A stretch of DNA of 34,770 nucleotides, taken from Bdellovibrionales bacterium (lineage in GTDB: Bacteria; Bdellovibrionota; Bdellovibrionia; Bdellovibrionales; UBA1609). Location: the NCBI GenBank assembly GCA_020435005.1, contig JAGRAE010000012.1, positions 1-34,770 of the forward strand, given 5' to 3'. Below, one piece after another: positions 9,065-17,430 of this stretch. The translations under genes and the position numbers were made by a program. Every line of letters begins with the position of its first letter. The stretch's first letter is position 1. Under the pieces are notes generated by a model. It was not told the origin of the DNA. It did not search any database and saw only the letters and a list, made by a program, of their open reading frames with translations.

Positions 9065-9970
9065 ATGTTAAGTTTTGACTTCCTAGGTTTAATATTATCT
9101 TTAGCATTCACAGCATTTAGTGTGTATCTGTTTGTTAGTACACTTTTTAAAAATAATGCTGATGCAGATGCTTTAGCTTGGGCTTCTGGTGATGAACCAC
9201 AAAAGTCAAAGTCGGGGTTTATTAATTTCTCACGACCTCTCGTGCACAACTTTACCTTACAGCACGCTTTTCGAGTTAAAGCTCCTCAATATAGAAGAAA
9301 TGTTGAAAAGAAAATTTTAACAGCAGGCCTTTCTAGAGAACTAAATGTTGACGAGTTTATCGGCTTGCAAATTTTATGGGGCATCATGTTTCCCGCCATG
9401 CTTACTATTTTGAACTTTGCTCTACAATTAGGTTACCCTTATTTAATGTTTCCAGCTTTTACTGTTTTTGGTGCAGTTTTTCCCCATATTCACTGTCAAG
9501 CTGCAAAAAATAAACGTTACATCTCAGTTGTAAAAGATCTCCCCTTCTTTATTGACTTAATGGCTCTGTCAACAGAAGCGGGACTTGATTTCGTAAATGC
9601 CATTCAAAGAATAGTAGATAAAGCTAAAGATAGCGTATTAGCCGATGAGTTAAATATAGTCTTAAAAGATATAAAACTTGGTAGCGCTCGCGGTGATGCT
9701 TTAAAAAAACTTTCAGAAAGATTAGACATACCAGAAATAACTAGTTTTTGTTCCGTCGTAATAGATGCCGACTACACGGGTGCGAGTATTGCACAAGTAC
9801 TAAAAGATCAATCTGTACAGATGCGAATGGAAAGGTTTGTTCGAGCAGAAAAAGCCGGTGCAAAAGCATCTCAATTAATCTTAATTCCTATGATGATATT
9901 TATTTTACCAGCAGTGTTTTTAGTAGTTTTTGCCCCAATCATTTTACAGTTCTTTTATGGGGGTCAGTGA
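9065..9970 (+). CDS. tadC: TadC-like inner-membrane platform protein (type II secretion F family)
   Basis: Inner-membrane platform protein of Tad/Flp pilus or type II-like secretion machines, 301 residues, normal for TadC. N-terminal membrane segment about residues 3-24, two more in the middle (about 96-140), then the T2SSF cytoplasmic domain: FFIDLMALSTEAGLDFVNAI, LKDIKLGSARGDALKKLSER and the conserved DQSVQMRMERFVRAEKAGAKA before the last hydrophobic segments. GAGGG precedes the ATG. It heads a six-gene overlapping operon, and its TGA overlaps the next ATG (TGATG). No tadB, ATPase or pilin gene is next to it in the window, unlike usual tad loci. Confidence 0.88.
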   Translation: MLSFDFLGLILSLAFTAFSVYLFVSTLFKNNADADALAWASGDEPQKSKSGFINFSRPLVHNFTLQHAFRVKAPQYRRNVEKKILTAGLSRELNVDEFIGLQILWGIMFPAMLTILNFALQLGYPYLMFPAFTVFGAVFPHIHCQAAKNKRYISVVKDLPFFIDLMALSTEAGLDFVNAIQRIVDKAKDSVLADELNIVLKDIKLGSARGDALKKLSERLDIPEITSFCSVVIDADYTGASIAQVLKDQSVQMRMERFVRAEKAGAKASQLILIPMMIFILPAVFLVVFAPIILQFFYGGQ

Positions 9971-10326
9971 TGAGTACTCTTAAACTTTACCTTCAAGAAA
10001 AGAATATATTGATTGCTAACAAGGTAACAATTGCAGATAATTTTATTAATCGTGCTCTCGGACTAATGGGTAAAAAGTCAATGGACCCAAGTTCAGCTTT
10101 GTGGATTAAAAGCTGCTCCCATATTCATACATTTTTTATGAATTTTGCAATTGATCTAATTTTTGTCGATAAAAATTTAGTTGTAAAAAAAGTTTGTTTA
10201 AATGCACAACCCTGGAAACATTTTTTTACCGGCTCCTGGCGTGCAGATTCTGTTTTTGAATTACCCGAGGGATCAATTATCGCGGCGAATATAAAAGAAG
10301 GAGATCAGCTCTATGTGGGTGCTTAG
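9970..10326 (+). CDS. DUF192 family protein
   Basis: Small protein (118 aa) of the DUF192 family (PF02643), of unknown biochemical role. Typical features are the N-terminal LANKVTIAD-like strand, RALGLMGKKSM (usual R-x-x-GLM block), and SHIHTFFMNFAIDLIFVDKNLVV, matching the family's His/Phe-Met-x-x-x-IDL-x-F-x-D core. Unlike many members it lacks an obvious signal peptide. The start is set by the TGATG overlap with tadC. A longer frame upstream is a shadow of tadC. It overlaps the next gene by 14 bases. DUF192 genes often sit beside tad genes, in line with this position. Confidence 0.88.
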   Translation: MSTLKLYLQEKNILIANKVTIADNFINRALGLMGKKSMDPSSALWIKSCSHIHTFFMNFAIDLIFVDKNLVVKKVCLNAQPWKHFFTGSWRADSVFELPEGSIIAANIKEGDQLYVGA

Positions 10327-11965
10327 GTTTTTAAATGGACCTTTAGCTGGTCAAATGATCAATCTAAAAAAGGGACAGAATTTAATTGGTCGAAATCAAA
10401 ATTGTGCAATTCCAATTGCTCATCCTGGTATATCAAAGCAACACTGTATAATTGTTATTAACGAAAATCAAATCAGTGTAAATGATTTAAACTCTAGTAA
10501 TGGTACATTTGTAAACGGTTTGAAAATTAAAAATTATAATTTAAAAGCCAATGATAAAATCAGTATGTATGATATTATGGCAGAAGTTATAAATGTGTCT
10601 GATGTTAATAAAGGCTTTGGCCAAGCATTAAATCCCAATCAATACTTTGGCAATGCAGCTGTTAATCATCATCCAGCAACACATCATGCCCAACCACAAG
10701 TAGATATAAATTTTCATCCACAAAACAGCCCAGAAATGAATATGTCTGCAGAGTCTCAAAAGCAAAGCGTTCAAATACCAAAAGGTTTGGAAGGCTTTGT
10801 ACGTTTAGCTCAAAACTACATTGAAGATGTAGTTCTCCCTGGAGTTTATAAACTAGCAGAGTGGACGGAGTTTAAATGGGTTCTTTTAATATTTATGGGT
10901 GCATTTATAGTTTTCGTTACTAGCTTATCGGCCATACCATTAATGAGAATTTTAAAAGCTAGTATCGAAAAGGAAAGTCAAAGAAGAGCTCTAACTATTG
11001 CTAGAACACTTGCCAAAGTCAACCAGGTGCCCTTAATGGAAGGGCAAGAGGCTAGTGTTTCTGTTGAGTTAGCAGACAGAGAACCTGGTGTGTCAAGTTC
11101 ATATATATTCTCAAATGTAGATAATATTATTATTGCTCCTGCAAGATTAAGTGGAAAATACCCCAATGAAAAATTTGTACATACAGCAAAAAAAGAAGGC
11201 CGTGAAGTTGTAGGGCAAATAGATAGTAGCACTATTGGTGCCATAGTGCCTATAGAATTTTATAACCCACAAACCGGCGGACAATCCATAGTTGCCTACT
11301 CAGTAGTTATATACGATATGGGAACCTTAGCCGTTGACGATGGCAGAACTTTAAGTCTATTTATTCAAACATTTTTTATAGCTTTAGTTGTTGGCACATT
11401 ACTATTTTTCTTTTTGTATAAGTTAATTGAATACCCGATTGCTAACATTAATAAACAGCTCGATAAGGCATTAAGAGAAGGTCAACTTCATATTGAACTT
11501 AATTATCAATTTCCAGTTATCCAAGATCTTATCTCTAACATAAGAAGCGTGCTCACTCGAATTGATGGTGCTAGCGATGGTAATTCACAGTCCGAGCAAG
11601 CATTTGAACAAGATCGTAGCCAGGAAATGGCCAGCCTTGTTCAACTCATTGGCTTCCCCGCCATGGCTGTACAGGCTTTGGATAATACAGTAGCTGCAAT
11701 AAATTCCAACTTTGAAGAAAAAACAGGAATGTCTTCCAGTGAAATTCTTTATGGCAATGTTTCCAGTATTACTGATCAATCTTTAAAACTAAGTTTAGAA
11801 GATCTCATAGCAAGAATAAATGAAAACTCTGATCAAATGATTACAAATGAACTTGAGTTTGGCGGTATTAAACATGAAATTGTAGCCCAAGCTGTGCATG
11901 GCAATAACAAAGTCTCATATATTCTTTTTGTAATTCTTCCTTTAGGAGAGGAGGATGCAAGTTGA
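10313..11965 (+). CDS. FHA-domain membrane receptor with periplasmic sensor and PAS-like domain (550 aa)
   Basis: Domain order: FHA domain, residues about 1-95, with the pThr-binding residues intact (Arg27 in GRN, Ser41-x-x-His44, Asn63-Gly64); an Asn/His/Gln-rich linker to about 155; membrane segment 188-211; periplasmic sensor region 212-345; membrane segment 347-370; a HAMP-like juxtamembrane helix (YPIANINKQLDKALREGQ); and a PAS-like domain about 435-545. This is the build of a transmembrane receptor, but it has no kinase, cyclase, phosphatase or methyl-accepting output. Output may instead be by binding of phosphoproteins through FHA. The ATG at 10313 has GAAGGAG upstream and overlaps the DUF192 gene by 14 bases. 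Confidence 0.85.
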   Translation: MWVLRFLNGPLAGQMINLKKGQNLIGRNQNCAIPIAHPGISKQHCIIVINENQISVNDLNSSNGTFVNGLKIKNYNLKANDKISMYDIMAEVINVSDVNKGFGQALNPNQYFGNAAVNHHPATHHAQPQVDINFHPQNSPEMNMSAESQKQSVQIPKGLEGFVRLAQNYIEDVVLPGVYKLAEWTEFKWVLLIFMGAFIVFVTSLSAIPLMRILKASIEKESQRRALTIARTLAKVNQVPLMEGQEASVSVELADREPGVSSSYIFSNVDNIIIAPARLSGKYPNEKFVHTAKKEGREVVGQIDSSTIGAIVPIEFYNPQTGGQSIVAYSVVIYDMGTLAVDDGRTLSLFIQTFFIALVVGTLLFFFLYKLIEYPIANINKQLDKALREGQLHIELNYQFPVIQDLISNIRSVLTRIDGASDGNSQSEQAFEQDRSQEMASLVQLIGFPAMAVQALDNTVAAINSNFEEKTGMSSSEILYGNVSSITDQSLKLSLEDLIARINENSDQMITNELEFGGIKHEIVAQAVHGNNKVSYILFVILPLGEEDAS

Positions 11966-12951
11966 GTAATTTAGCTCTTAAAAATCAAGTTGAATACACT
12001 CTTACTGTTACATCAGGACCTGATAAAGGGGAAACCTTTAAGATAATGTCTTCAACTATTAAAATTGGTAGAGCTTCAACCAACGATATTGTTTTGGCCA
12101 AAGATGTTAAATGTAGTCGTAATCATGCAGAAATTATAATCTCTCACTCCGGTATTATAATTAAATCACTAAATAGTAAAAATTTAGTTGAGGTCGATGG
12201 CAAACCAGGAGAAGCCCTTTTATTAAATCACAATGCAAAAATACGTCTAGGCTCAACAAAACTATTATTTCAAATTTCCATGCTGATTAAAGATGAAGAA
12301 ACCCGAGCTTTGAGTGCAACAATGAATGAAGCCTTTGATCCACAAGAAAAAGGATTAGGTTTTTCACGTCCACAGCAAATTCACAAAGGCAATAAACTTC
12401 CTCTCCCTCAAGGCAAAACCAACAACTTCAGAATGATATTAATAGGAATAGGTATTATTTTAATTATGTTTGCCTTAACAAATGAAGAAGTAGGTTTTAA
12501 CAAAGATGCCGGCATTCGTACAGATGAAGAAATCGAAAAGGAAATAGACACCATCAATAAAATCAGAGAGGCTGAAAGAAAATTAAGGGAAAAAAAAGGA
12601 TTGCAATCACCTAACTTTAAAGAAGCACAGACTCATTATATTAGAGGTTTTAGATACTATAAAAAAGGTAAATATGAAAGATTTCTTTATTCTTTTCAAG
12701 CTTGTACATCAATTTTTCCCGAACATGAACTGTGCAAGACATACAAAAAATTAGCTGAAAAAAAATACTATGAGTTAATACAGTTTCAAATGATACGTGG
12801 AAAAAAGTTACTTGAAAAAGGACAATACTCTGCATGCATTTCTGTTTTTAAAAATGTCACATATATGGTTAAAGATAAATCAAATAAAGTTTTTCAAGAG
12901 GCTGAAGCTAATCTCAGTCTTTGCAAATCAAGAATGGAAGGAAGGTTCTAG
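11962..12951 (+). CDS. FHA-TM-TPR protein (329 aa)
   Basis: N-terminal FHA domain (about residues 10-108) with Arg37 (GRA) and Ser52-x-x-His55 present but the usual Asn-Gly replaced by an altered stretch ending VDG, so phosphothreonine binding may be weakened. One membrane segment lies at about 156-173. The C-terminus (about 215-329) holds TPR-like helical repeats, seen as THYIRGFRYYKKGKYERFLYSF and later KKLLEKGQYSACISVF-type helices. Topology puts FHA in the cytoplasm and the TPRs in the periplasm, or the reverse. The start is TTG at 11962, overlapping the previous stop by four bases (TTGA), with GGAGAGGAGG upstream. It is one of three consecutive FHA genes. Confidence 0.83.
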   Translation: MSNLALKNQVEYTLTVTSGPDKGETFKIMSSTIKIGRASTNDIVLAKDVKCSRNHAEIIISHSGIIIKSLNSKNLVEVDGKPGEALLLNHNAKIRLGSTKLLFQISMLIKDEETRALSATMNEAFDPQEKGLGFSRPQQIHKGNKLPLPQGKTNNFRMILIGIGIILIMFALTNEEVGFNKDAGIRTDEEIEKEIDTINKIREAERKLREKKGLQSPNFKEAQTHYIRGFRYYKKGKYERFLYSFQACTSIFPEHELCKTYKKLAEKKYYELIQFQMIRGKKLLEKGQYSACISVFKNVTYMVKDKSNKVFQEAEANLSLCKSRMEGRF

Positions 12952-14960
12952 TGTATAAACTTAGTGTCTTCCACAATGGAAAACTTATTAAAGAGCTCTC
13001 TTTGACACCAGGAGAAGAGTACATCATCGGTCGTGATGCCACTGCCGATATTCAATTAGGTGTTTCAAAGGGAATTTCCAGACAGCATTTAAAAATATCT
13101 TTCAATGAACCTGCTTGGTATTTAGAAGTTCTTTCTCAATATGGAAACTTACACTATGATGGCGAAGAAGTTGATGAGTTGTTTCTAGATGAAAACACAC
13201 AGTTCAATCTACCTCCATATGATTTTCATTTTTCAATTGAAAAAGTTAAAGTAAAAGAGTCCAGAAAATCAGAAAATGTACCTCCCCCACCTCCTCAAGA
13301 GGAGATTCATAATGAATTGAATTTACCAGCAACAAGTGAACCAGATTTGTCTCTAGAAAACAAAAAGACAAACTTGGTTCCACATAATAACAACTATAAA
13401 AATCCACACGAATTAGCTTTAGAAAGTTTTTCTGATGAAGATACTTCTCCTGGTTCTGCCTCTAACCTTGTTGGAATTATCAAATGGCATGATCTCAATG
13501 GTAAAAAGAAAGGATACAAATTTAGTAACAGTTGTGTTGTAGGGCGCGGTGAAAATTGTGATGTTACCATAAAACACAATAAAATGAGTCGAAAGCATTT
13601 TGAAATAAATAAGGAAAATAATAAGTTTTACGTTCTTGATTTAGGTAGTGCGAACGGTACAAAAGTTAACAATAAACCCGTTAGTACTCACCAACCATTA
13701 CAAGTCGAGAGTGGAGATGAAATTTCAATATCCAATTTAAAGTTTAACTTTGAAATAAAGGATGAGCAATTTGCCAACAAATTAAGTAATGTACCAATGG
13801 TACAGAACCACGGCCCTGACAGGTTACCTATGCCGCCTCAAATAGCTGGAGCTAGAGTCGTACGAGTTAGTAAAAATCAACACCGACAAGTTATTAGCGA
13901 TCCTGGACGAAAAAATAAATTGGTCAGACTTGCTATTATGTTATTGGTACCTGTACTTCTTATTGGTCTACTTTTAGAACCTGAAAAGGAACAAAATGAA
14001 AAGGGAAAAACTGATCTCGCCTCAGTTGTAACCTTTGACAAATTGACACCCGAAGAAAAACAAATAGTAATAGACTCTTTTCGGCTTGGTAAAAGTCACT
14101 TTAATCAAAAGAAATATGCTAACTGTATAAAAGAATTTGAAAAGATTCACAATATTATACCCTTCTATGAAAATTCAAAAGAGCTTATAGGTTTATGTGA
14201 ACAAGCACTTGCTTTAGAAAGAGAAGTTTTGGTTGAAGAGGAGAAAGAACGAAAACAGCGAGAACTTGAACAAAGGATCGCTGTCATTGTAGAAGATTGT
14301 CGTGCAAAAATGAACCAATTTAGAACCGCAGATGAGGCTAATTCTTGTATCGCCGAGGCAATGACTATGTTTCCTGACCACCCTGCCATACTCGATTTTC
14401 AGAACACAATTGCGATGAGGGAACAATCAGAAAGAGACCAAGCTGCGGCAAAAGCCCGACGACAAAAACTTATCCAACAAGGTGAAAATGCTTACAATGC
14501 AGCAAATAGTGAATTTAAAAAACAAAGTTTTCGTAAAGCTATTGACCTGTTCAATAAGTATTTAGCTGGGAATTTCCCAGATACCAAAGGCCATAAAGAA
14601 ATTGCTGAAAGAGATTTAGCTTCTGCAAAGACTCAACTAACAAAAAAGGTTGATGAGCTGTTTGGTGAATGCAAAAAAAATTACAATGACAGAAAATTTA
14701 AAGAGGCCATATTTGCTTGTGACAAAGCCACCAGTGAAGATCCAAAAAATGATGAAGTTCTTTCTTTTAGAAAATCTATTTTATCAGAATTAAGAAAAGA
14801 AATGAAATTAATGTATCAGGATGCCATTTTAGAAGAAAACTTAGGCAATGTAGATGCCGCCAAAGAAAAATGGAAGAAAATTATGGAACTAGATATTCCA
14901 TCTGACGAATACTATAAAAAATCAGAAAGCAAACTCAAAAAATACGGTATTGGAATATAA
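12951..14960 (+). CDS. Double-FHA TM protein with long TPR-like tail (669 aa)
   Basis: The largest FHA protein of the cluster. FHA-1 (about residues 1-98) keeps Arg28 and Ser43-x-x-His46 but has a degenerate Asn-Gly region (YGNLHYDG). FHA-2 (about 173-272) is complete, with Arg199, Ser213-x-x-His216 and Asn235-Gly236. A Pro-rich linker (PPPPP near 111-115) lies between them. One membrane segment is at 324-342. The rest (about 370-660) is TPR-like and coiled, with repeated units resembling LGKSHFNQKKYANCIKEFEK and FGECKKNYNDRKFKEAIFACD. The start is GTG at 12951, overlapping the previous TAG by one base, with AAGGAAGG upstream. A TTG 30 bases earlier is less likely. It looks like a paralogue of the preceding FHA-TM-TPR gene with an extra FHA. 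Confidence 0.85.
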   Translation: MYKLSVFHNGKLIKELSLTPGEEYIIGRDATADIQLGVSKGISRQHLKISFNEPAWYLEVLSQYGNLHYDGEEVDELFLDENTQFNLPPYDFHFSIEKVKVKESRKSENVPPPPPQEEIHNELNLPATSEPDLSLENKKTNLVPHNNNYKNPHELALESFSDEDTSPGSASNLVGIIKWHDLNGKKKGYKFSNSCVVGRGENCDVTIKHNKMSRKHFEINKENNKFYVLDLGSANGTKVNNKPVSTHQPLQVESGDEISISNLKFNFEIKDEQFANKLSNVPMVQNHGPDRLPMPPQIAGARVVRVSKNQHRQVISDPGRKNKLVRLAIMLLVPVLLIGLLLEPEKEQNEKGKTDLASVVTFDKLTPEEKQIVIDSFRLGKSHFNQKKYANCIKEFEKIHNIIPFYENSKELIGLCEQALALEREVLVEEEKERKQRELEQRIAVIVEDCRAKMNQFRTADEANSCIAEAMTMFPDHPAILDFQNTIAMREQSERDQAAAKARRQKLIQQGENAYNAANSEFKKQSFRKAIDLFNKYLAGNFPDTKGHKEIAERDLASAKTQLTKKVDELFGECKKNYNDRKFKEAIFACDKATSEDPKNDEVLSFRKSILSELRKEMKLMYQDAILEENLGNVDAAKEKWKKIMELDIPSDEYYKKSESKLKKYGIGI

Positions 14961-14961
14961 A

Positions 14962-15645
14962 ATGAAATCATTCGTTTTTAGAAATTATAGTAGTCAATTT
15001 TATAAACCACAACCTGTTATTAATGATGACTTAGAACGAACTTTACTAACAATTGCTACACCTTGGGGCTCTAAATCTGGCGCAAACAAATCTACGGAGA
15101 TAATACATAATTTCTATTTATCAGCAAGAGGCGACCAAGAAGCCACCTCACCATTTGAACGGATGAGACATTTATCTCAAGAAGCCAATGATCTAAGAAT
15201 TGCCGTCTTATTTGCAAACGAGAAAATTTATAATGAAGATAACAATGATGAATATGTTACTGGCTGTGAACTTGTTAGTATGGTCCAAGTAGGGAATGAA
15301 GTACACTTTATACAAGTTGGTCAACCCGCGATTTATTTAATTAGAAATGGCATTAGCCTATTGCCAATGGCTTGTCATTTAGATATGTCGATGAATTCAT
15401 CTACTGAAAAGAATCTAATTTCTCCTATGCCATCAAAATTAATTGGATTGGAAAAAACTATTGATTTCTCTGTCCACACCTTCGTTCCTCAAGTGAGAGA
15501 TAAAATTATTTTTTTGAGTAGAACTTTTGCACCCTCTAAAATTTTTAATATGGACTTCAGTTCAGTCAATTTGGATTCATTAACAATAGAAATAAGTAGG
15601 GAGAATCCTAACAACCCATTTTGGATAGGGTTACTGGAGTTTTAA
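14962..15645 (+). CDS. PP2C-like protein, probably a pseudophosphatase (227 aa)
   Basis: The pattern resembles a reduced PP2C (PPM) phosphatase: a strand and helix like those after the usual DGMGG motif (here PWGSKSGANKSTE, residues 34-46), AVLFANEKIY where PP2C has a helix with AN-x-x-I, then GCELVSMVQVGNEVHFIQVG aligned with the GTTLV...HVGDS region. The first Asp-Gly metal ligand is replaced by Pro-Trp and the VGD Asp by Gln121, so metal-dependent catalysis is unlikely. The start is ATG one base after the previous stop. A TTG at 14950 would add four residues. Its 3' end overlaps the convergent sulfatase-like gene by 15 bases. The fold call is by eye and needs a profile search, but the link with FHA genes makes it attractive. 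Confidence 0.6.
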   Translation: MKSFVFRNYSSQFYKPQPVINDDLERTLLTIATPWGSKSGANKSTEIIHNFYLSARGDQEATSPFERMRHLSQEANDLRIAVLFANEKIYNEDNNDEYVTGCELVSMVQVGNEVHFIQVGQPAIYLIRNGISLLPMACHLDMSMNSSTEKNLISPMPSKLIGLEKTIDFSVHTFVPQVRDKIIFLSRTFAPSKIFNMDFSSVNLDSLTIEISRENPNNPFWIGLLEF

Positions 15646-17430
15646 TAGTCGTTTTTTAATTCTCTCGTTTAGTTTTTTATTTTTAGTTAAATTCAGATAT
15701 ACTTCAGTAATACCAGGGCCATAATCTTGTTCTATTTCTACATCCCAAATTAAACCATTTTTTAGGTTTTCTATTTTTAATTTCTTTTCTAATTTAAAAT
15801 TGTAGTAATTTCTAATAAAGGCATCAAATAATCGATCCCGTTTTTTGCCTTTTCCCTGCATTTTCCAACGCATTAAAGAGTTAAAGAGCTTATCGTTACA
15901 CTCTTTAAGTTTACTTATATCATTTATTGTTTTTGTGAAAAACTGAAAGCAACCACGAGGAGGTATATTTATAGGTTGTCCTAATTTTCTTTTAGCTAAG
16001 TATAGCCAATATTTATTTTTTGCCTTTTTTGCAATATTCATTAAATTTTTCCATAAATTATTATTTAGAGCTAATTCAGCTTTCCAGCCATAAAGTTCCT
16101 TGTCTGTTCTATTTTTCCAAAGTGCTACATTTATTTCTTTAATCAATGTGTTTACATTTTTGTTTTTAATGCTCCAAATTTCTTTGGCTATTTTAATTTT
16201 TTCTACAAAATGTTTATTTATACCCTCCCATTGATTTAAACCATTACTTTTCATATAACTATGTATCGGTGAAAAGATAGTTGTCCACAATTTATCTTTA
16301 TGGGAAATTGGTGAAATCTCATTGCGATCAATTAGAGTATTATACAACTTGATTTGCTTATCATAAACCATTGAATAGTGACCACTTCTTACTGAAAAAC
16401 GGCTACCTCCCAGTTCTCTCCATTGTGGATATGCCGTTTCAATAAGTATATAGCGATTACTATCCCATGCCACATCAGGTTTATCGAGTATAGGTGCTAA
16501 AGATGTCACTTCTAGTTCGCGTCCTTCAGGAGAATCTGGTATGTATCCAAAAAGTTCGTACAAGGTAGCTCCTATATCCACTAAACTAACATTTTTATCA
16601 ATTTTCCAATGTATGCCTTTGTCACGTAGTTTTTGTGCAGGCTTTATAAATAAAGGTGTTTGAACTATTTCTGAATATAAGTTTACCATGGAAGGCTCTT
16701 CAGGACGGCTCTGCTCAGAGTAGCTATTCAACCCAAACAGAAACACATGCGAATTGTGCCATAGTTTTTTTTGTTTAAGCTTATTAATTAATTCATTGAG
16801 TGATTCATCTAGCTCTAAAAGTTGTCCTTTATATCCCCTGGCTCGTTGTTGCCCAACATTATTGACAGTTGGGACATCAATGAACTGAAGGTCTGGAATA
16901 TAAATTACTGAAAAGTGAGGGTGATCACCAACATCATTATTTAACCATTTAAAAAATTTTGAAAAACTCTTGCTGGCAGGAGTATAATGACTTTCTAGAG
17001 TTAAGTTTATGTGATCATCAAATTTTTCAAAGCCTTGTCCAAAGCCAGATTTACTAAATATCGGTGGTCCTCCTGAAAAAAAAGCTGTTCTATAACCTTT
17101 GTCTAAAGCCACTTCAGCAACCGTCTCGAATTTTTTGGATAAATACTGATTTCCATTGTGCCAAACTCCATGTTCTATTGGAAAAAGTGCTGTTAACACT
17201 GAAGCCAAAGCGGCTTGGCTCATAGTTGATGGCGTAAAATTATGAGTAAATCGAATGGCCTCATCACAGAAAATTTGAAAGCCTTGATTGAGCTCCTGTC
17301 CTTGCTCACAATTGACCTGGCGAAAATTTAGAGATTCAATTGCAATTACAATTACAGAAGGCCTCTTGTCCACATTCCATTGACAAGCAGAAAGAAAAAA
17401 CAAACTCAATAACGCTAACCAGCAACTCAT
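15631..17430 (-). CDS. Sulfatase-fold lipoprotein, likely without catalytic activity (599 aa)
   Basis: Lipoprotein signal MSCWLALLSLFFLSAC with a standard lipobox (LSAC, Cys16). Residues about 24-330 follow the alkaline phosphatase/sulfatase fold: SVIVIAIESLNF at the first strand, a STMSQAALASVLTALFPIEHGVWHNG block that lines up with the nucleophile region and its GLYP-x-x-HGV ending, YRTAFFSGGP and GFGQGFEKFDD, then HVFLFGLNSYSE where active enzymes have SDHGE. The nucleophile Ser/Cys appears replaced by Ala and the metal-binding Asp-His by Leu-Asn, so it is probably a pseudoenzyme. The C-terminal 260 residues are Lys-rich and helical, with no known family. The 3' end overlaps the PP2C-like gene by 15 bases. 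Confidence 0.7.
   Translation of the reverse strand: MSCWLALLSLFFLSACQWNVDKRPSVIVIAIESLNFRQVNCEQGQELNQGFQIFCDEAIRFTHNFTPSTMSQAALASVLTALFPIEHGVWHNGNQYLSKKFETVAEVALDKGYRTAFFSGGPPIFSKSGFGQGFEKFDDHINLTLESHYTPASKSFSKFFKWLNNDVGDHPHFSVIYIPDLQFIDVPTVNNVGQQRARGYKGQLLELDESLNELINKLKQKKLWHNSHVFLFGLNSYSEQSRPEEPSMVNLYSEIVQTPLFIKPAQKLRDKGIHWKIDKNVSLVDIGATLYELFGYIPDSPEGRELEVTSLAPILDKPDVAWDSNRYILIETAYPQWRELGGSRFSVRSGHYSMVYDKQIKLYNTLIDRNEISPISHKDKLWTTIFSPIHSYMKSNGLNQWEGINKHFVEKIKIAKEIWSIKNKNVNTLIKEINVALWKNRTDKELYGWKAELALNNNLWKNLMNIAKKAKNKYWLYLAKRKLGQPINIPPRGCFQFFTKTINDISKLKECNDKLFNSLMRWKMQGKGKKRDRLFDAFIRNYYNFKLEKKLKIENLKNGLIWDVEIEQDYGPGITEVYLNLTKNKKLNERIKKRLLKLQ

Follow-up and report, generated by a model that had tools for sequence, protein, structure and literature searches.

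A conserved TadC-headed operon of FHA proteins and a predicted PP2C-fold pseudophosphatase as one half of the Tad pilus machine of Bdellovibrio-type predators

The six rightward genes at positions 9065-15645 of the window (the whole stretch of 34,770 nucleotides analysed here, contig C33 of a 3.39 Mb draft Bdellovibrionales genome) constitute one half of the pilus machine needed by Bdellovibrio-type predators to attack prey: tadC, a DUF192 gene, three FHA-protein genes and a PP2C-like gene form a real, strongly conserved, Tad-linked FHA module that, judged by its gene content and order, is the orthologue of the published predation operon Bd0470-Bd0475 of Bdellovibrio bacteriovorus HD100. We favour, with some reserve, the reading that the operon combines the TadC platform with its own phosphothreonine-reading control module, split from the Tad locus on contig C77 of the same genome and with a proposed gating by contact. 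The literature already describes the orthologous operon and its phenotypes in predation; added here are the pseudophosphatase assignment and the evidence for the module as part of one ancestral Tad array.

Gene content and the published counterpart

The first gene (tadC, 9065..9970; 301 aa; Pfam T2SSF, E=1.5e-17) codes for the inner-membrane platform protein and the second (9970..10326; 118 aa; PF02643, E=2e-18) for the DUF192 protein, which takes the second place in the block throughout the phylum and in which no membrane segment was found by hydropathy. The first FHA protein (10313..11965; 550 aa; PF00498, E=1e-18) consists of an N-terminal FHA domain (domain 1, 10382..10567), a periplasmic sensor domain enclosed by two transmembrane segments, and a PAS domain; the second (11962..12951; 329 aa; Pfam) possesses FHA domain 2 (12058..12252), one transmembrane segment according to hydropathy, and a periplasmic helical/TPR-like part with a trace match to TPR only (0.02); the third (12951..14960; 669 aa; Pfam), orthologue of Bd0474, carries FHA domains 3a (13020..13190) and 3b (13536..13730), a transmembrane segment and TPR repeats (TPR_2, E=2e-7). 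The last gene (14962..15645; 227 aa), orthologue of Bd0475, codes for the putative PP2C-fold pseudophosphatase, assigned from an AF2 model, Foldseek and the absence of the metal ligands (see below). All six genes lie on the plus strand. Their junctions, read directly from the sequence, agree with the order and overlaps given in the preceding sequence-only reading: TGATG at 9968-9972 joins tadC and the DUF192 gene (start at 9970), 14 bases (10313-10326) are shared by the DUF192 and first FHA genes, four (TTGA, 11962-11965) by the first and second FHA genes, and one (12951) by the second and third FHA genes, the latter starting with GTG; a 1-base gap at 14961 precedes the ATG of the PP2C-like gene at 14962. 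Its count of four FHA domains in three membrane proteins was likewise recovered (1, 1 and 2 Pfam copies; 2, 1 and 1 transmembrane segments by hydropathy).

The B. bacteriovorus genes, described as one operon (PMC6561027, PMC12034629), correspond in content and order (TadC; FHA protein Bd0473; FHA-FHA-TPR protein Bd0474, 674 aa; Bd0475, 228 aa). Among the loci compared, L064 and L154 (the latter from B. bacteriovorus strain kdesi) match Bd0470-Bd0475; the proteins of L064 differ from those of the window, to which they are 25-62% identical. A mutant of Bd0470 (TadC) has lost attachment, killing and rounding of prey, and a Bd0474 mutant attaches to prey and neither kills nor rounds it (PMC6561027). 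Binding of Bd0474 to Bd0075 was found by two-hybrid, and a Bd0473-Bd0475 pair was predicted by AlphaFold-Multimer with an ipTM of 0.604 (PMC12034629).

Conservation of gene order and the remaining Tad genes

The phylum Bdellovibrionota was sampled with 290 genomes, of which 288 had a tadC match (cut-off E<=0.001), a few of these being weak TadB cross-matches only. In two relatives, G038 and G013, no tadC match was obtained; both contain a tadB-tadZA cluster (loci L234 and L236), and since both are draft genomes the missing tadC may be an assembly gap. Among the non-redundant loci with enough sequence, the order tadC-DUF192-FHA1-FHA2-FHA3 is kept in 65 of 66 from Bdellovibrionia and in 49 of 50 from other classes, with the PP2C-like gene also in place in 63 and 42 of them, respectively. 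Conservation of order across the phylum is thus far more than expected by chance, and the arrangement pointed out from the window extends beyond close relatives. In the 20 relatives inspected first, which represent ten families of the order, the six genes had the same succession, except that in one no PP2C-like gene was identified; in most of them, maf, yggS, proC and divIVA lie upstream of the block, and the sulfatase gene, tolQ and tolR lie downstream. Overall, tolQ comes after the block in 56/66 Bdellovibrionia loci. Such flanks, conserved within the order, are what would be expected if the FHA block controlled its envelope neighbours (sulfatase/YejM-like protein, TolQ/TolR) or cell division (DivIVA) and its link to TadC were incidental; outside the class, however, the flanks vanish, whereas tadC and the FHA genes stay together and are linked to the tad genes, so that this most improbable reading is already largely refuted by the neighbourhood comparison. 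The sulfatase-superfamily protein itself (15631-17430, minus strand, convergent with the PP2C-like gene) has weak similarity to YejM/PbgA, and its gene is kept between the PP2C-like gene and tolQ-tolR within the order.

The other half of the machine was located on contig C77, which carries flp, cpaA (prepilin peptidase), two TadE-like genes, cpaB, cpaC (secretin), a fused tadZA and tadB; tadA, as part of the fusion, and tadB, whose positions the sequence-only reading had left to be established, both lie there. The tadC gene is missing from this cluster and sits in the window; the two contigs together encode all Tad core parts (TadB, TadC, TadA ATPase, secretin, RcpC/CpaB, prepilin peptidase, Flp pilin), and the window operon belongs to a Tad system. 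The 756-aa fusion (L024:3609-5879) joins a MinD-like TadZ to TadA: The N-terminus is a CbiA/ParA-like domain, and a search of the own-genome protein for an N-terminal FHA domain of the KilF type gave no FHA match. The fusion was seen in most genomes tested across the phylum, and TadZA or its ATPase part in 34/34.

In 14 of the 50 other-class loci the FHA block continues into flp, cpaA, tadE, cpaB, cpaC and tadZA (and tadB where the locus is long enough); the Tad genes, split in Bdellovibrionia, are contiguous there, and the proposed tie of the FHA proteins to a Tad machine is thereby corroborated. Because the order is kept phylum-wide and the block runs into the tad genes in these 14 loci, the window operon would be the half, with TadC and the FHA proteins, that became separated from a once undivided Tad locus; a single ancestral array, split in Bdellovibrionia, is the simplest reading of the gene orders. 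The array is likewise split in family f18: The idea, based on a single TadC-search match, that these genomes are devoid of the rest of Tad was ruled out, as TadZA is encoded elsewhere in each f18 genome tested. A response-regulator-like gene follows the PP2C-like gene in two f18 loci (L228:6533-7855 and L231:10959-12125), in place of tad genes.

Directly after tadB, contig C77 encodes an RHS/DUF6531 secreted-type protein (L024:1003-2712, minus strand); such a gene also directly follows tadB in the other loci checked that reach past tadB, the gaps being 3 to 166 bases. The hit-locus protein Bd0109 belongs to the RHS family (PMC3818213), and the C77 protein looks like its counterpart; a 102-aa ORF (L024:679-987) stands at the place expected for Bd0108. 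The long-studied hit locus (Bd0108/Bd0109) would accordingly form the distal end of the Tad gene array.

Phosphothreonine-site residues and the PP2C-fold protein

In the phosphothreonine site of FHA domains, Arg and Ser contact the phosphate and the Asn of the NGT motif contacts the peptide; a His is conserved as well. All four residues are invariant in domain 1 (81/81 sequences of the order and 24/24 from outside, i.e. 105/105); the site residues of domain 2 are mostly kept, Arg, Ser and Asn of domain 3b are kept and nearly invariant, and domain 3a has retained Arg, Ser and His, whereas most of the phylum has Gly in place of its NGT Asn. On these residues, domain 1 would fully qualify as a phosphothreonine reader, domains 2 and 3b largely, and domain 3a with the exception of Asn. 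Foldseek comparison of the AF2 model of the first FHA protein (pLDDT 80.7) yielded a WalK sensor model as top match, followed by FHA domains; as modelled, the protein resembles a WalK-type sensor devoid of the kinase domain.

FHA-fold domains also occur in the T3SS proteins SctD/YscD, where they have a structural role at the inner membrane, and the three FHA proteins might similarly form a ring or scaffold of the Tad base that binds no phosphopeptide. Indeed, Pfam Yop-YscD_cpl matches all three of them, and both the absence of an adjacent kinase and a dead PP2C, its metal site lost, would fit a scaffold. In contrast, a purely structural protein would not be expected to keep the phosphate contacts Arg and Ser and the peptide contact Asn invariant in domain 1 and nearly so in 3b, and for the first and third proteins the plain FHA model scores above the YscD model; we regard the structural role as less likely and retain phosphothreonine reading as the preferred function.

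Profile searches recovered the T2SSF, DUF192, FHA and TPR families named in the sequence-only reading, but PP2C was not callable from single-sequence profiles: The last protein had no Pfam match and reached NCBIfam Stp1 with E=0.0085, and a profile of 19 family members retrieved only PP2C phosphatases from the PDB, at a weak E of about 0.6. Its AF2 model (pLDDT 90.5), however, was matched by Foldseek first to PppA (6jkv; E=1.6e-12, probability 1.00), the T6SS phosphatase of Pseudomonas, and next to many PP2Cs; the protein is thus predicted to have the PP2C fold. When the metal-site motifs (NED, DGxGG, SDG, DN) were examined for Asp, all four metal-binding Asp were absent in 65/65 sequences of Bdellovibrionales and in 3/3 sister sequences from other Bdellovibrionia, and the replaced positions show no consistent acidic substitute. 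Other classes keep the full set of four in 28 of 43 homologues encoded at the same place; even these 28, however, lack Asp at the fifth position, which is GD in active PP2Cs such as tPphA, so that their full activity is not certain. In a TadC plus FHA1 tree, the complete loss of ligands maps to the branch leading to Bdellovibrionia (support 1.0), besides several scattered partial losses elsewhere. With all metal ligands gone, a working phosphatase is unlikely in Bdellovibrionia: Of the designation "PP2C-like", the fold stands and the enzyme does not, and the protein is best described as a predicted pseudophosphatase, conserved next to the FHA domains.

The recognition of Bd0475, published as "hypothetical", as a putative PP2C-fold pseudophosphatase is the new part: This last "hypothetical" protein now has a predicted fold, its active site is seen to be degenerate, and a likely ancestral state can be named for it. 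No description of Bd0475 as PP2C-like was found in the literature searched, which left out most subscription journals, and PMC12034629 mentions neither phosphatase nor PP2C. A recognisable PP2C gene was not found in 8 of the 50 other-class loci; the FHA block persists without one in L209, L211, L227, L252, L268, L274 and L280. Since the gene is absent or unrecognisable in several lineages, the module does not depend on it in all of them. The own genome contains one ordinary PP2C gene at another place. A role of the FHA and PP2C-like proteins in anti-phage defence was dismissed, PADLOC giving no match.

The blocks examined contained no identifiable Ser/Thr kinase gene, in line with the lack of an adjacent kinase noted from the window; Hanks-type kinases are encoded in 59/59 relatives searched, and the own genome has three above the family cut-off, none of them within the operon. 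The unassigned neighbours in related loci, scanned as candidates for an adjacent kinase, were RHS/DUF6531, response regulator, glycosyl hydrolase family 3 and peptidase genes; one short gene had no match. As the FHA residues are kept and all searched relatives possess kinases, a phosphothreonine reader is present and a writer available, and we infer their connection. A complete T6SS-like threonine-phosphorylation switch of kinase, FHA reader and PP2C eraser, the latter active via altered metal ligands, would be in agreement with PppA as the top Foldseek match and with the ligands kept in 28/43 other-class homologues; it is highly unlikely, considering that all four Asp are replaced in Bdellovibrionia in the manner described and that the operon is devoid of a kinase.

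Proposed control of the machine and comparison with known systems

Most likely, we infer, phosphothreonine reading serves as a gate or scaffold of the Tad machine, with the kinase encoded elsewhere. This Ser/Thr kinase would phosphorylate a partner, the trigger being the detection of prey contact or machine assembly by the periplasmic sensor or TPR domains; once phosphorylated, this partner would be held at the TadC platform by the three FHA proteins. The pseudophosphatase would not act as eraser; it would be a subunit with a binding or regulatory function, the second FHA protein being its probable site. In this way, the pilus would be assembled or fired under the control of contact when prey is attached to and invaded; as the phylum includes lineages with unproved predation, the machine may serve general adhesion rather than prey contact. 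The blocks without a kinase, the absence of PP2C in some lineages and domain 3a without Asn count against the mechanism. More tentatively, it is conceivable that the Tad pilus has an integral phosphothreonine-reading module across the phylum, to which well-known predators belong, and that the phosphatase became, in the class of Bdellovibrio, a dead subunit that reads or shields phosphothreonine, no longer erasing it, and controls a contact-triggered machine. The proposal bears on how Bdellovibrio senses prey and triggers its pilus; owing to the fold assignment and the contiguity of the FHA block with Tad, phospho-control is directly testable with point mutants.

The threonine phosphorylation pathway of the T6SS (PpkA, Fha1, PppA) likewise ties an FHA reader and a PP2C-fold protein to a contact machine; it differs from the window operon, which has no kinase and a PP2C without metal ligands and serves a different machine. 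The Tad-like Kil system of Myxococcus xanthus (PMC8460266, PMC12075869) shares the distribution of the core over two clusters, several FHA proteins and a probable role in predation; neither paper mentions PP2C or phosphatase. The Kil ATPase, KilF, carries a fused FHA domain, whereas TadA is fused here to a MinD/TadZ-like domain and the FHA domains of the Bdellovibrionales system reside in separate membrane proteins. Assembly of the Kil machine takes place at prey contact, and a signalling cascade has been proposed for the FHA proteins of this system; Bdellovibrionales are listed among the Tad-like predators and reported in the same clade as Kil by core-gene phylogeny (PMC8460266). By its Tad core, its four FHA domains and its lineage, the window machine would belong with the Kil-like Tad systems.
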